NCBI GenBank assembly: GCA_025266875.1
Contig: JALLLT010000015.1
Span: 124,001-188,000 of the forward strand
Source of the DNA: Fennellomyces sp. T-0311
Taxonomy: Eukaryota > Mucoromycota > Mucoromycetes > Mucorales > Lichtheimiaceae
Direction: 5' to 3'
Length of the DNA stretch: 64,000 bases
Shown: positions 22,278-41,369 of the stretch, piece by piece
How positions within the stretch are numbered: position 1 is the first letter of the stretch
Layout of the letters: every line of letters starts with the position of its first letter
Program-made: the position numbers and the translations under genes
The notes under the pieces: model-generated
What the model saw: only the letters and a program-made list of their open reading frames with translations
Told to the model about the DNA's origin: nothing
The model's database searches: none

Positions 22278-22317
22278 GCGCACACACACGCACACACACG
22301 CACACACACACACACAC
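22278..22317. repeat. CA-dinucleotide microsatellite
   Basis: CACACACG-type run of about 40 bp, ending about 120 bp before the C9orf72-like ATG. Confidence 0.9.
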
Positions 22318-22436
22318 CGCATGATTATATTTCTCTCTCCACTTGGATTCACACCAACCCACTTTTTCTTTTGGTTCTCTACCAAAAATAGCGCGCGATT
22401 TGCGTGTTGTTGCTTCTTTCTTATTACCTTTTTGTC

Positions 22437-24729
22437 ATGAGTTTAACACCTAACGATAATCAAGAGCCTCGATCGCGCATAACCAAGGCAACAGTATCGA
22501 CGACTGCTGTGCAACCATTAGAGATCACAACTACAGCTGTTGTCAATCGCAATGAAGAGCAAGAACAGCCTGAAGACAAGACATCAGGAAGCGATACTGG
22601 CAACAAATCAGACGATCGTGGGGAATCGGATCAACGACGAAACGATGTTCGAAGAAAACAATCACATCACCATCATCGACATCACATCAAGTCACCCGTC
22701 TTTCAGCCAGACGGATCCGTTTCTCCGTTGTCTTCGCCGCTCAGCTCCGCCGGCGGCAGCACGGTCGTGACACCCTCTATCAATCATGATAACGTTATCT
22801 TTACGGAACTACCCCCGCCCATCGTCAAAGGCGGGCTTTCCGAAGCCGTTGTTGCGCTTCAGGATGCCGTAAATGGTAAAAAAAATAGGAAGCTTGTGTA
22901 ATCACCCATAATGTGTGTTTAATAATCATTCCTTAGAATCGAATGCTCCCTCGTCAACGCAACAGCCGCAAAGCAATACAGCAACAACTCCACCAGCATC
23001 GGTTGCCACGACCCCTTCGGCTATCATCGAAGGCCATCGACCATCGCGTCGTATTCGCAATAAAAAGGCAACAAAGCCTCAGGAAGAGGAAACGCTCGAT
23101 CAATTGTTTGAGTCATGTTTCTTCTCAGCTGTGTTATTGCTTCAATGGTCGAACGTGATGGGACCCAAGATGGAAAAAGTATGGTCGGCTGACGAAGCTT
23201 CCATGGATGAAAAGCTGCAGACGCTGATAGGACGACAAGTGTTGAATGGCGAGATGGGTCGACCTCTATCTGGGGTGGAGCTAAAGTGGATCACTTTGCA
23301 TCGTCAGGCCATTATGTGTGCTGCGTTTCTGTTTAATGACAGCAATGCGTTGCGTGCTCTCGTCTTTGTCTTGCCTCTTCGTTATTTGCGCAACTTCTCG
23401 CCTTATTTCCATGTCCTCAGAGACCGCGTGCCCTTGTTATTGGTTGAGCCGCTGCAGCAATTGCGTAAACTCTATCGGCGGCGTAACATTGTAAGCATAT
23501 ATCGGTTCATTAGATGTACAAATGGTTTAATAATTAAAAAAAAAGGGATGGTCTACTGCGTTGGACTTTTTTGCTTCGAGATGCCTGTCGCCGTTTATTC
23601 GATCCATCATGAAGATTGATACTGTTTCGTTGCCTCTCGAGTGTAACAAGGTATTTGGTTCATAACCGTATCATATCTGAACCGCTTTTTTTTTATTTTC
23701 TCATACGCATTCGAAGATCAGTTACAACTTACTCGATCAGGAATCACGGCAATTGTTTGAATCACCATTTTTTGGGAGGTTTGTTGCTTGTTACGTAAAA
23801 AGAAAAGCCATCAAAACTGATAACGATGGATGATTAGGGTGGTTACGTCGCATTTGCAGACACTTGCATCGTCAGTGCTCCTGGGCAATAGTTTGACCAC
23901 GATGAACATGGTAAGTGCAACGAGATCTCATATGAAACGTTTTGGCTTATATATATATGCCATGCATTTTCTCAGATGATCAATACGTTGAGCTTATTTC
24001 TATCACCTGACGAAAGGAATCGCTCCAGTCATGCCAGAAAAAATCTCAAATACATGGCCGACCTGTATCTGCAAGGACTGTTGATTCAAGATCTGGAGAA
24101 TATGCATGTGCGATTGGAAGTGGCAGTCTTGGATTCCAATGTACCTACCACAGTGGTTGACATGACACGTCTCACAGTCAAACAAACCCCGCTATTGCCT
24201 TCCTACCGGAAAATCCAGCAGGAGTATCGCGACTGGCGCAAAGCCCAGCTGGAAGATGATCTCGCTAGGTTCCTGCAGCCGCCTTCCGAACGATCTGTAA
24301 CAGCCTCAGAGTGGAAGTAAGGAGGATTTGTTTTATTTGCAAGTCAGTTACTCATAAAATTGATTCATAGGAAACAATCCACCGTGTTTCATAAAGTGGA
24401 TAGTACGGCTCCGATGGTCAAAACTTTGCTCAATGAAGTCAGAGCCGTTCCCACTCGGTTACGCGAAGCCTACGTGAGACAGTGGCGTCGATGGCTTGTT
24501 CGTCGGGCAGTTGCCTTTATACAATTTTGCAAGGAGGAGGGGCGAGTTTTGGTCTAGTTCATTGAGAGAAGTTGCTAATAAGATATATAGATTTACGCAT
24601 ATCACCAAACTCAAGGACGCGCTGCAGTTGCATGATCAAAACGACTTTCTGATTGTTCTGGCACAAGCCGAAAAGCTCAAGCCAGGACTGATGGAGAAGC
24701 TCAACACTCACGAAGCCAAATCACATTAA
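22437..24729 (+). CDS. C9orf72-like DENN-domain protein
   Basis: Eight exons (22437..22875, 22937..23490, 23546..23650, 23717..23778, 23838..23910, 23976..24316, 24371..24541, 24591..24729) give about 627 aa. After a disordered Ser/Thr/His-rich N-terminus (about 200 aa), the protein follows animal C9orf72 in order: VLLLQWSNVMGPKMEKVW and LNGEMGRPLSG, QLFESPFFGR, VTSHLQTLASSVLLGN, TLSLFLSPDERNRSS, YLQGLLIQDLENM, LTVKQTPLLP and LAQAEKLKPGL. Known: C9orf72 is a DENN-type protein that complexes with SMCR8 and WDR41 and acts in autophagy, lysosome signalling and Arf/Rab GAP activity. The extra N-terminus is absent in animals. The last intron is ambiguous: either GC-AG (24542..24590), which keeps conserved LK, or GT-AG (24546..24615). 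Family call strong, details of exons 7-8 moderate. Confidence 0.88.
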
Positions 24730-24847: not shown

Positions 24848-26863
24848 TCACTGAAGTTCGGGACGAAGCTCCAAAACTCGGGTGTTTGGATCATCGGTAG
24901 TGTTGTGTCTGGCTACCTTTTTGAGCAAACTGGTAATGATATCACGGTTACTAGCATTCTTCTTGATCCGTTTGCGGAAATGCATCAGGAACTCCTTGGT
25001 AGTCATTCGCTTGCCACGCAACAGATCGACCACTTCCTTTTCCGTGATCAAATCATCCGAAGCGCCGCCCGCTGCCGGAGCAGGAGATGAGACGGTTCGG
25101 TGACGATGCTTGGCATCAGGACTACTTGCGCCATCTTCCATCTTTCGCTTTTTACTTGTAACGGCCACTGGACTCGCTTCCCGAGTAGGCGGTGGCGAAT
25201 GCTCCTTTTTAACCAAAGATGGCGAGCCAGGACGACCGATGGGTCGAGATAACCCTTCTTTCTTGACCTTGGCCGCCAAGTTTTTCTTTGGCATGGGCTT
25301 GCCAGGTACAGGTCCCTTTTTCTTAATCGGTATCGAGCTTTTCTTTTGTTGCTGCGAATTCTCAGCTTCGGACTTGGACTCTTCCTTGTCGCCTTCAGAG
25401 TCGGCCTCATCCTCCTATTATAGCAATTACATCGTCGAATACTTACTAGATCCTTTCCCTTTTTACTACTTACACTGCTTGCATATGGATCTCCTTCTTC
25501 ATCACTGTCGTACGCCCGGTTCTTCTCCAACGTACGCACCAGCTTTTTCATTTGCTGTCGTGCTTGTCAGTCTTTCTTCTCTCTCCTCATCTTTGAGTAC
25601 AACCAAACTTACTTTGCCTTCGGATGTAAGCTTGTTAAAGTCCTCATCATCCTCTTGGTCATCATCATCATTTTCACCACCAAGGGTATATCCTTTTGTC
25701 TCGCGTCTCAAACGCTCCTACATTGCTTCCCGTGTTATCCTCCGCTTCTTTGTTTTTATCCAATAAACAAACAGTACCTTGCTGTCCTTCATATCTTCAT
25801 CCTCCAACTCATGTTCTGCTCCACCTTCCTCGTCGTCTTGGAATACGTCATCAAAGTCAAGATCATCAATGTCGGAATCCTGTCGACTTTTCCGCCGTGA
25901 TTCATCTTCATCGTCAGATGCTGGCTTTTTCATCTTGGCGGCCGTTTTGGCTTCTTCATCATCTTCCGCCAAGGCCTTGTTGCGTTTCAGCATCATCCAT
26001 CGACTTTGGTCTCGCTTTTGCAGATTTTTCAGCTATTCATGGTGGCATCAGACAAGGCTCCTGATCCATTCATCCTTGCTAGCTACCTGTTCCTCCGCTT
26101 CTTCCAGCGTGAACGTCTTAAAGTTTCTCTTTGGCTGAAAGCGATACCACCGATCCACGGGCACTACCTTGAATTCATTGCCCTTTGCAAAGGAAATGAA
26201 CAAGCCATTCGAATATATAGCTCATATACTAACCGAGACGACAAAGAAAACATAATCCGACCGTTGACCACCTTCGTAAGTGCCCGTAAAACAGTTTTGC
26301 TGATCGTAATCCTCTAATATCCAAGGCTTATGCTCCTCCTCCTTCAACTGTCTGGTATCTTCCTTTGCCAAATAGATTTGTTTTGTTCGCTTCTTGAACA
26401 ACATTTGTTTGTTGCGAGTGGCACCGCCCATTGGAGCAATTAACGAAGTATCAGCACCTGTCTTTGGACCATGTTGTTGCTGTTGCTGTTGCTGTTGTTG
26501 CGAATTGCCGGCTTCGGGCGTTGTGTTTGGACTGGCATTGCCATTGCTAGGTGACCCTTTGTTGAGAAATGATCGGGTAAAAGTTTGATTTCCATCCTTG
26601 CGCTGCAGTTTGACAGGACGAGTAAAGTTGCTGAAATCGACTTTTTTGGCTGTTTTGAAATCCATGACATGATTTTTGCCTTTCCGTTTCGACGACATTA
26701 ACTGAAAGTCATTGTACGGAATGTTGTGTGGTACTTCAGATTGAGACTGCATGGGCCGTCGCAAAGGCTGTCGTGGCCGTTGCATGGGACTATTTCGTGA
26801 GGGTATACCACGTCCTCTTCCTTTGGCAGGAGAGTGAGTTGTATTGTAAATGCTGGAGGACAT
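24848..26863 (-). CDS. TFG1: Transcription initiation factor IIF subunit alpha (RAP74/Tfg1)
   Basis: Six exons (26863..26234, 26182..26087, 26032..25778, 25717..25613, 25554..25474, 25414..24848) give 577 aa. TFIIF-alpha pairs with TFIIF-beta, escorts RNA polymerase II to promoters and stimulates initiation and elongation. Seen: KNHVMDFKTAKKVDFSNF and the dimerisation region with KPWILEDYDQQNCFTGTYEG (about residues 150-220), VVPVDRWYRFQPKRNFKTFTLEEAEE, the basic QKRDQSRWMMLKR, a long acidic Asp/Glu region, then a C-terminal winged helix beginning LITEKEVVDLLRGKRMTTKEF. A poly-Gln run lies near residue 125. The donor at 25473 has an in-frame alternative 30 nt downstream, adding ten residues. 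The gene ends 118 bp from the C9orf72-like gene, tail to tail. Confidence 0.95.
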
Positions 26864-27840
26864 GTGTAAAGGTAAAAAGATGTAAAAGTCTAACTTGCGT
26901 CGTAACCAACTTTACGTATCCGCGCCGCTGGATTTGATCTCCGCGGATAACAATGGATTGGCACATTAGATTGCCAGAAGCATTTTCTTTTCATAAACAA
27001 GTGAAAGCGTCTCTTTTCGTTCCTTGCATTAGCTTGGCTGGAGAGTCTTTCTCTGTTTCCTTGTTGTTACGCAGTATATGTATGGGTGCGCAGCAACTCA
27101 CTCTTGCAAATGTCACTCCACCACGCAAGTCATATGACATTAACCACGTTGTTCATCAAATTCAGGTACTCTCGTTTATTAATGCTTAATCACCCAAATT
27201 GCGGACCAAGTCGCAATATGATTGTTCAGCGGTCAAGACTTTTGGCCCTAAACAGTAATATTGTCAGTACTAAATACCGGCACAAAATAAGAAGAGTTTT
27301 TAATGCGCGGTCCAAGCAGATTGATGGTGTACAAAGCCAAAATCTAAATATATACTTCATCATATGCACTGCACCAATTTCATTGTACTCACCACTTTTA
27401 CATAAGCACCATGAATATTTGACCAGGCTACCATATACGATCGAAAACAGATACCATTTTGAAAGTCTATGATATAGCATTGACAACCGTTTCCATGTCA
27501 CCTGCTGACCACAAAATACGCATCAATTACCAAGTAACAAAAGACGGTCATATATGATAAGTGACAGAAGAACCCAGAAAGCCTTTTTTCATAAGCTCAT
27601 TATGGAAAGCATAATTTTTGAACAACAGCCTACTAAACCAGCCGAAAGCATAAAACTTGAATAAAACGACAGCTACTTTATTTCAAGAGACTGGCACGCA
27701 GCGTTCGACTACTGCACTATATAACGATCACTTTTTTTCGGAGCAAGAATGATCCGCAGCGTTTTTGGGTGGCTTGGAAATCCAAGTTAAAACCTTTTGC
27801 CTTTACGGGTGAGGCTCTCCCCTTTCCACAACAATACATC
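26864..27840. other. Spacer between TFIIF-alpha and eS30
   Basis: A divergent intergenic region of about 1 kb. Open frames at 26953-27189 and 27226-27501 have no coding support. The stretch before 27841 is presumably the ribosomal protein promoter. Confidence 0.4.
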
Positions 27841-35361: not shown

Positions 35362-37263
35362 CTAAAAAATATTATTGGCTCTATGAGCAAATCGTGCTTC
35401 AAATGGAGGTGGTGATACGACGACACCTCCATCACGAATGTCATCTAGATTAGGCATTGTACCATCCGTAGGTGGCAGTATGTCACACCGTGTCAATAGA
35501 CACGTTATAAAAGTAAATAGCTGAGCCTCAGCCTAACAAAATAGTGTTTAGGACTGTAATTTAGGAAGTCAGAAAAGGTATTACTCACGAGATAAATTCC
35601 AGGGCAAGCTCTTCTTCCCCATCCAAACATATAGAGTGAGCGCTATAGTTATCTTATAAATTATTGCTTATAAAATATGCCGATGTAAATGGCGAGTACC
35701 TCTTCAATTTTTCCAGTCATATCAGCGGCCAAGGACTTGGGGTTGCTTACAAATCGCTCGGGTACGAATTTTTCAGGATCTGGATACTGAGCGGAATTTC
35801 TGTGCATTGCATAAGATGCTGGAAGGATCAGCACACCTTTCGGAAAGATATAATTTTTGTAATGTACTGCAATATAGGCAGCAGTTAGAAAAGGGGGTTG
35901 TACGAGCTTACAGAAGATGTATAAGACTTACTATCTTTTGTCAAAACATGAGGCAAAGTAGTATAGTTTGTTCCACGGTAGCGCATTGACTCCTTAAGTA
36001 CTGAGAGGAATAGAGGAAAAGAATCTTTCTCCGAGAAGAGGGGAAGACGACCATCATGTTCGCGAATAAATTCGTCAACTTCTTCACGGAGTCGTTTGTG
36101 TAAATCCGGATAATGCAATAAAATGGCAATCATCCATTTCATAACTGCCGTGACATTATCAGCTGCACCTAGCAGAAGATCAGCTGCTTAAGCTAGTAAG
36201 TCAATGCATGTCATACTTTTGGTACTTTCCTATATGTACTAACCTAGCGCAACTAACAAGTCCGCTTCTTCAAGTCCAAGCTGCTTCTGTTCATAGTACA
36301 AATGCTTAAACATATTATTATTTTCTGCATTTAATGCAATATACAGCAGCTCCCGGAGCAGCGGATCCTTTTCTCGCAAGAATTTCTCTTGTCTCGAGTT
36401 ACGACCAGGAAGCTTATCCAGGAAAGATAAGATAGGAAAGAAGCCTCCATAGTCATTATGTGCGCCTGCCAACACCAACCCCTCGTGTGTAAAATCAAAT
36501 ACTCTTTGAAGAAGTGTCTCGCTTATTGCATCAACATCAATTCCAATGCAGGTACGAAACGTATGGCTTATGTCGGCACGTTTCAATAACAGTAAGGGAT
36601 CGACTGCGCCGTGCTCTTGAGAGGCAGATACCAGACCGTCAACTAGTTTCATCGCGTCGGCTTGAATGGCATAAATTTCCTTGTTAATTACGGTGGGAGA
36701 CATGGACATAGAAGATGTTACTGCTCGTAGATGCTTCCATCTGGCGTTGGCTCCTTGAAATACTATTCCCCTGCAGAAATTCTCTCCTTGAGCATTTATC
36801 GTTAATTGCAAGAAAATTCCGCTTTACCGTCCACCATTAGAGTATCCTTGTGAAGTAAATCGTTGATATGGGCGATTGGATGCAACTGCACCGTTCACAG
36901 TCAAAACATGATGTACAATGTTTGGATCACTAATAGTAATCCATTGCTGTACACCCATTTGAATCCTAATAACAGGACCTAGTTCGTCGTGCCACTCCTT
37001 GAGTTTAGACCCCGGTAATTTATCAAAGGATAAAAAATGGCCTATAGTTATATCAATGTCATTGTACCGATGCTACCATATCATATTACCAACCACCTAC
37101 CAAAGTACGGGTAACATCCTTTCGGTGTCGGAATTAAATCCAAGGTGTTTTGAAGGTGTCGAGGCTTGGATGGAAAAAGGTAGTGCACTAACACCAGTAT
37201 AACAGCTACTACAGCCGATGTTGGTGCAATACTTATAAATGAAAATGTGTCTAACACAGTCAT
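35362..37263 (-). CDS. Cytochrome P450 monooxygenase, paralogue A
   Basis: Seven exons (37263..37101, 37041..36828, 36770..36244, 36183..35932, 35866..35700, 35642..35589, 35532..35362) give 515 aa with matching phases. Seen: an N-terminal membrane anchor (IAPTSAVVAVILVLVHYLF), I-helix GAADNVTAV, ExxR in KESMRYR (about 368), PERF (FVPERF) and the haem loop FGWGRRACPG (Cys near 453). These are ER-bound haem monooxygenases fed electrons by a P450 reductase; the substrate is unknown. The conserved I-helix Thr is Asn here. It is a tandem copy of the gene at 39481-41369 with identical exon lengths. The two are identical over 246 bp (36721-36966), intron included, but only about 85-90% alike elsewhere. 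Confidence 0.93.
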
Positions 37264-39480: not shown

Positions 39481-41369
39481 TCAATAAAGATTGTCGTTCC
39501 TACGAGTAAATCGTACTTCAAATGGTGGTGGTGACATGACGACACCTCCGTCGCGAATATCGTCTAGATCGGGCAGAGTACCATCCATAGGAGGTACTAT
39601 GTCACATCGAGCCAATAAACTTGTTATAAAAGTAAATAGCTGAGCCTCAGCCTAGAAAACGGTATTCAGAACTATAATTTAAAAATCGCTATCACTGCTA
39701 CAACTTACTAAGTAAATTCCTGGGCAAGCTCTTCTTCCCCATCCAAACATAAAGAGAGAGCGCTGTAATGATTAATTTCCTAAGCTATTGTGCATAAAAT
39801 GCGACGGTATATGTGACAAGTACCTCTTCAATTTTTCCATTCATATCGGCGGCCAAAGACTTGCTGCTGTTTATAAAGCGTTCTGGTACGAACTTTTCAG
39901 GATCTGGATACTGAACGGAATTTCTGTGCATAGCATAAGCTGCTGGAAGAATCATCACACCTTTCGGAAAGATGTAATTTTTGTAATGTACTATAATATA
40001 AGCAGCAATTAGATAAATTGTGTGGTACGAACTTATAGGAGATGTATAAAGCTTACTATCTTTTGTCAAAACATGAGGCAGGGTTACATAATTTGTTCCA
40101 CGGTATCGCATTGACTCTTTAAGCACGGACAAAAGCAAGGGAAGTGAATCTTGTTCGGAGAAAAGGGGTAGACGGCCATCGTGTAAGCGTATGAATACAT
40201 CAATTTCTTCACGAAGCCGTTTGTGTAAGTCTGGGTAGTGTAGTAGAATGGCAATCATCCATTTTGTAACTGCTGTTACATTATCAGATGCTCCTATCAT
40301 AAGATCACCTACTCAAAATAGTAAGTATATGCGATCCATTCATTTTGGCATTATCCGAACCTAGTGCAACTAGCAAGTCCGCTTCTTCAAGTCCAAGCTG
40401 CTTCTGCTCATGGTACAAATGTTTGAACATATTATCGTTCTCTGCATTTAATGCAATATGAAGCAACTCCCGAAGTAGTATATCTTTTTCTCGCACAAAC
40501 TTCTCTTGTCTTGAGTTACGGCCGGGAAGTTTATCCAGGAAAGATAAGATAGGTAAGAAGCCTCCATAGTCATTGTGTGTGCCTGTCAACACGAGTCCTT
40601 CATGCGTAAAATCGTAAACTCTTTGAAGAAGTGTCTTGCTTATTGCATCAACTTCAATTCCAATGCAAGTACGAAATGTATGACTTATTCCGGCACGGTT
40701 CAAGAACAGTAAGGGATCGACTGCGCCGTGTTCTTGAGAGGCAGATACTAAATCGTCAACTAGTTTCATCGCATCGCCTTGAATGACATGAATCTCTTTG
40801 TTAATTACAGTGGGAGACATGGACATAGAAGCCGCTGCTGCTCGTAGATGCTTCCATCTGGCGTTGGCTCCTTGAAATACTATTCCCCTGCAGAAATTCT
40901 CTCCTTGAGCATTTATCGTTAATTGCAAGAAAATTCCGCTTTACCGTCCACCATTAGAGTATCCTTGTGAAGTAAATCGTTGATATGGGCGATTGGATGC
41001 AACTGCACCGTTCACAGTCAAAACATGATGTACAATGTTTGGATCACTAATAGTAATCCATTGCTGTACACCCATTTGAATCCGGATAACAGGACCTAGT
41101 TCGTCGTGCCACTCCTTAAGTTTATACCCCGGTAATTTATCAAATGAAAAAAGATGACCTATAATCATTTTAGTATCAATATCAAATTATATAAGGAAAT
41201 AACTACCAAAGTATGGATAGCAGCCTTTCGGTGTTGGTATTAAGTCCAAGGTGCTTTGACTGCGGAGGGCCTTGGATATAACAAGGTAGCGTAGTAATAC
41301 CAGTACAGTAGCTACCACTGCTATTATCGGCGTAATGCTTATAAGTGAATATGGGTCTAACACAGTCAT
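39481..41369 (-). CDS. Cytochrome P450 monooxygenase, paralogue B
   Basis: Seven exons (41369..41207, 41158..40945, 40887..40361, 40308..40057, 39990..39824, 39762..39709, 39651..39481) give 515 aa, the same exon lengths as paralogue A. Seen: membrane anchor ISITPIIAVVATVLVLLRYL, I-helix GASDNVTAV, KESMRYR, FVPERF, FGWGRRACPG and the tail FEVRFTRRNDNLY. All haem-binding and ExxR residues are intact, so it is presumably functional. Introns differ from paralogue A except intron 2 (40888-40944), which is identical because it lies within the shared 246-bp tract (40838-41083). Family membership is certain; the CYP family number and substrate cannot be told. Confidence 0.94.

Follow-up and report, generated by a model that had tools for sequence, protein, structure and literature searches.

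We analysed a stretch of 64,000 nucleotides from the mould Fennellomyces sp. T-0311 (the window; C57:124001-188000 of an assembly of 45.6 Mb in 182 contigs) and found that it harbours, at 22437-24729 on the forward strand, a gene of eight exons for a protein of 627 amino acids. Its product, a longin-DENN protein, is the C9orf72 orthologue of Fennellomyces. In humans, C9orf72 is altered in the most frequent hereditary form of amyotrophic lateral sclerosis and frontotemporal dementia, and its normal role is debated. A sequence-only reading of the window had proposed a C9orf72-type DENN gene here, and this was confirmed by the curated Pfam profile for C9orf72-like proteins, PF15019, which matched above its cut-off and far beyond chance (8.7e-41; 140.5 bits versus a cut-off of 27). 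The best structure match was human C9orf72 (6lt0_C, E = 1.6e-27), and the segments quoted in that reading align in order with the human protein over residues 211-616. The predicted longin-DENN fold, taken from an orthologue, was likewise nearer to C9orf72 than to FNIP, FLCN or NPRL2. No other DENN family, such as FLCN or NPRL2, scored better in sequence, profile or fold. There is thus hardly any chance that the gene encodes a divergent FNIP/Lst4, folliculin or GATOR1-type (NPRL2/3) longin-DENN protein wrongly labelled C9orf72: sequence and profile searches return C9orf72 and none of these families, folliculin/Lst7 and FNIP_N have loci of their own in the same genome, and the margins in sequence, profile and fold already refute such a mislabelling.

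All features of the gene lie on the forward strand. Exon 1 (22437-22875) encodes residues 1-146 of an N-terminal tail, with motif 1 (residues 21-36, STTAVQPLEITTTAVV), a stretch with RKQSHHHH and SP sites, and motif 2 (from residue 135, SEAVVALQDAVN). Exon 2 (22937-23490) completes the tail and covers most of the longin (uDENN) domain; W217 in this domain aligns with human W33. The longin end and the linker to the cDENN domain are found in exon 3 (23546-23650), where the public model P0001 is identical across the junction. The cDENN domain starts in exon 4 (23717-23778) and continues through exon 5 (23838-23910), with the segment SHLQTLASSVLLGN aligned to human C9orf72, and exon 6 (23976-24316), with the segments LSLFLSPDER and TVKQTP seen in the human alignment and in PF15019. 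Exon 7 (24371-24541) includes a long helix; its human counterpart in the alignment, helix alpha-11 (residues 392-418), is wedged into SMCR8 according to PMC8336837. The C-terminus with LAQAEKLKPGL is encoded by exon 8 (24591-24729), whose last bases are the stop codon.

Introns 1-6 are GT-AG introns, and intron 7 (24542-24590) is a non-canonical GC-AG intron. P0001, deposited for Fennellomyces sp. T-0311 as 'C9orf72-like protein family-domain-containing protein', is 100% identical to our model in the overlap. It has 586 residues, runs into intron 7 and terminates with KEEGRVLV; because the GC-AG intron was not recognised, the deposited protein lacks the last exon. The Circinella minor orthologue P0002 continues past intron 7 in the same way as our model and backs exon 8. 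An intron 7 with a GT donor at 24552 was rejected, since it yields a frameshifted end and the GC-AG choice is backed by P0002. A frame artefact or a pseudogene is ruled out, as the eight-exon frame is open and related proteins occur in 19 fungal genera. A CA dinucleotide repeat (about 22280-22318) lies some 120 bases upstream of the start codon. A convergent neighbour (24851-26911, reverse strand), with its stop about 120 bases from that of C9orf72, has two frames that match TFIIF-alpha, one above and one below the Pfam cut-off.

The sequence-only reading had named SMCR8 and folliculin as genes to look for, and both were found. SMCR8 is located at C46:781501-778753 and encodes 755 amino acids; the public model, P0028, starts 96 residues later than ours and so is without the DFILISEFSE segment. 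The best PDB match of the protein is SMCR8. In our tree, a branch with support of 100/100 separates FLCN/Lst7 (two rows) from SMCR8 and the fungal rows (13), although the program flagged long branches and the three animal SMCR8 rows were not resolved as one group. By these sequence comparisons, the gene groups with animal SMCR8 and not with folliculin. The Pfam folliculin profile PF11704 matched only the Lst7 locus of the genome and missed SMCR8; on its own it would have pointed to a genome without SMCR8, a conclusion overturned by the match to SMCR8. When human SMCR8, our protein and 22 of the 44 other matches were aligned, the arginine equivalent to human R147 was present in 23 of the 24 rows, with a gap in P0031. 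Among fungal rows it was found in 19 of 20, the remaining one being a gap, so that it is kept in every fungal row covering the position.

The folliculin/Lst7 locus (C79:4773-6032) encodes a longin-only protein of 349 amino acids. On the same contig we found an FNIP_N-type locus (C79:492899-493369), whose raw six-frame translation is interrupted by five in-frame stops. The Folliculin_C profile PF16692 had no match in this genome nor in any control genome and is hence uninformative. WDR41 was not found: human WDR41 searched against the genome gave 44 generic WD40 matches, the best at 1.6e-7, and five of the six retained loci, once translated, resemble F-box/WD40 proteins by eye. Among the best 120 of 430 WDR41 relatives at E <= 1e-20, all species-named ones are vertebrate. 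Two WD40 loci on different contigs (C114:369809-370378 and C124:327169-327738) had identical scores and may be a recent duplicate or one region present twice in the assembly.

By analogy with the human complex, it is likely that C9orf72 and SMCR8 act as a heterodimeric GTPase-activating protein (GAP). PMC8213707 describes how the human longin pair cups ARF1, how SMCR8 inserts its R147 into the active site, and how the W33G/D34K substitution in C9orf72 nearly abolishes activity. In Fennellomyces, C9orf72 would pair with the SMCR8 orthologue from the same genome, and a GTPase of the ARF or Rab type would sit in the cup formed by the two longin domains. The invariant tryptophan (human W33) would lie on the face supplied by C9orf72, and the catalytic arginine would come from SMCR8. 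The dimer would then act as a GAP, probably on vacuolar or endosomal membranes and tied to nutrient state, while the tail with its conserved short motifs would probably serve docking or phosphorylation. In the C9orf72 alignment (human, our protein and 14 of the 26 other matches), the tryptophan equivalent to W33, an ARF contact, was present in 16 of 16 rows. As both this tryptophan and the catalytic arginine are retained in the fungal pair, GAP activity is the most plausible interpretation.

Some residues weigh against this reading. Human D34 is replaced by Ser in all 14 fungal rows and by Asn in the tick. Moreover, conservation of human interface 1, with residues as listed in PMC8336837, is mixed, and several C9orf72 residues differ from the human ones. 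In C9orf72, F84 is replaced by Trp in 13 of 14 fungal rows and H128 by Phe or Leu, L125 is Ser, Thr or Ala, V82 is Leu, Pro or Ser, and V86 is varied (Thr in Fennellomyces). On the SMCR8 side, in fungal rows covering the positions, L115 is replaced by Phe and F117 by Ile or Val, M166 is aliphatic or Met, and F169 is Phe, Tyr or once Ser. The loss of D34, together with the strongly conserved tail motifs, would suit a pair that was kept but lost its GAP activity and instead scaffolds other proteins, such as those of autophagy or TORC1, which would dock on the tail. We regard this as improbable, as no fungal row covering the arginine has lost it and W33 is present throughout; their retention suggests that catalysis is under selection.

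In total, 27 relatives of C9orf72 were found at E <= 0.001 among 7996 candidates scored in the protein search, all 27 with PF15019. They comprise 26 fungal proteins in 19 genera (counted by eye, as are the following numbers) and one from a tick. Fennellomyces belongs to the Mucorales (Lichtheimiaceae) and Actinomortierella to the Mortierellales. Whereas 19 fungal genera had a C9orf72 match, 24 had an SMCR8 match and 12 were common to both. Seven of the 19 therefore gave no SMCR8 match, and this, the Lst7 and FNIP loci in the genome and the interface-1 residues unlike the human ones would fit a true C9orf72 that has longin-only Lst7/folliculin as its main partner, or acts by itself, instead of working with SMCR8. 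Such an arrangement seems unlikely to us. The same genome encodes an SMCR8 with the catalytic arginine, 12 genera are in both lists, and the known partner of Lst7 in yeast is FNIP/Lst4, as stated in PMC11836306. In addition, a genus missing from either list cannot be read as lacking the gene, since scoring in both searches was confined to candidates with the most shared words.

The N-terminal extension of about 200 residues described in the sequence-only reading is real, with 207 residues before the longin start, and disorder, as had been suggested, is predicted for the tail in the orthologue P0002. Its supposed richness in Ser, Thr and His held in part: together they make up 26% of the first 205 residues versus 15% elsewhere, but histidine forms one local cluster (8 in 205). 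Of 23 Mucorales rows, 17 fit a strict pattern for motif 1, which is degenerate in P0018 (LEITMTAVV) and P0025 (LQVTMTAV). As for the other rows, the tails of P0007, P0012 and P0013 are short and begin after the motif, and the N-terminus of P0016 is unrelated. Motif 2 (SEA..AL) was present in 22 of the 23 rows. Mean pairwise identity was calculated over 13 rows, one per genus, picked for carrying motif 1, a choice that raised the value for this motif: 0.88 over residues 21-30 (STTAVQPLEI) and 0.67 over 31-40, compared to 0.78 at the start of the longin domain in the same rows. It was 0.49-0.53 over 71-100, with RKQSHHHH and the SP sites, and 0.45-0.63 over 121-150, with motif 2. Identity was low over 41-70 (0.04-0.11), 101-110 (0.23), 111-120 (0.08) and 151-200 (0.01-0.09). 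Despite the choice of rows, the alignment indicates that the tail is not a free spacer, and its motifs are probably docking or phosphorylation sites, readings based on consensus patterns for such sites. It is conceivable, although rather doubtful, that Mucorales retain a functional C9orf72-SMCR8 GAP without WDR41, in which the two-protein core is ancestral and the tail motif STTAxQxLEITTTAVV replaces the lysosome anchor, possibly phospho-switched at the neighbouring RKQS/SP sites.

Elsewhere in the window, two open frames 4 kb apart on the reverse strand (36242-36823 and 40308-40940) are nearly identical over the 70 residues compared and had no Pfam match at E 0.001. They are probably a tandem duplication.

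A fungal C9orf72 is not without precedent. Zhang et al. 2012 (PMC3521125) named Rhizopus C9ORF72 as the fungal exception, and S. cerevisiae is listed among species without the gene in PMC5822839. For fungi outside the Dikarya, a survey of TORC1 components from 2025 (PMC11836306) describes FLCN/FNIP1 as conserved in Mucoromycota; the words C9orf72, WDR41 and SMCR8 are absent from its main text. Among the titles listed in searches of the open-licence literature, none was on fungal SMCR8 or on a functional study of fungal C9orf72. The presence of C9orf72 in fungi, the headline of the sequence-only reading, is thus already known, and that interpretation is right in substance, with the SMCR8 partner gene present in the genome. 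What the present analysis adds is an SMCR8 partner that keeps the catalytic arginine, a corrected C-terminus for C9orf72 and the conservation of motifs in its tail.

A mould could serve as a host for work on the two-protein core of the human complex. With C9orf72-SMCR8 beside the folliculin/Lst7 and FNIP loci, each arm could be deleted separately, and the ancestral function and the need for WDR41 would become directly testable. If the SMCR8 tree holds, the split of SMCR8 and folliculin predates the separation of fungi and animals. The duplication suggested as 'early metazoon or pre-metazoal' in PMC3570213 would then fit only in its older, pre-metazoal form.

Compared with known systems, folliculin/Lst7 and FNIP/Lst4 belong to the same longin-DENN superfamily and both have loci here, but these are other loci and other families than C9orf72. 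Rhizopus C9ORF72 is of the same family, in which our search gave the Rhizopus matches P0009, P0013 and P0017; the passages of PMC3521125 that were read make no mention of fungal SMCR8 or of the tail motifs. In contrast to the human system, WDR41 was not found here with the human query against the genome. Fennellomyces SMCR8 is shorter than the human protein (6lt0_B; 755 versus 937 amino acids) and is missed by PF11704, and its bridging helix is unaligned, being a gap in 20 of 20 fungal rows. Nevertheless, it has in common with human SMCR8 a longin domain in which the segments DFILISEFSE and ARGxVxP occur, as well as the catalytic arginine and a DENN part. Similarly, Fennellomyces C9orf72 differs from human C9orf72 (6lt0_C, 7o2w_A, 7mge_C) in the change of D34 to Ser and in 184 extra N-terminal residues with their own motifs (W217 versus W33), but resembles it in the full-length longin-DENN architecture, the order of the segments, the retained W33 and an SMCR8 encoded in the same genome.
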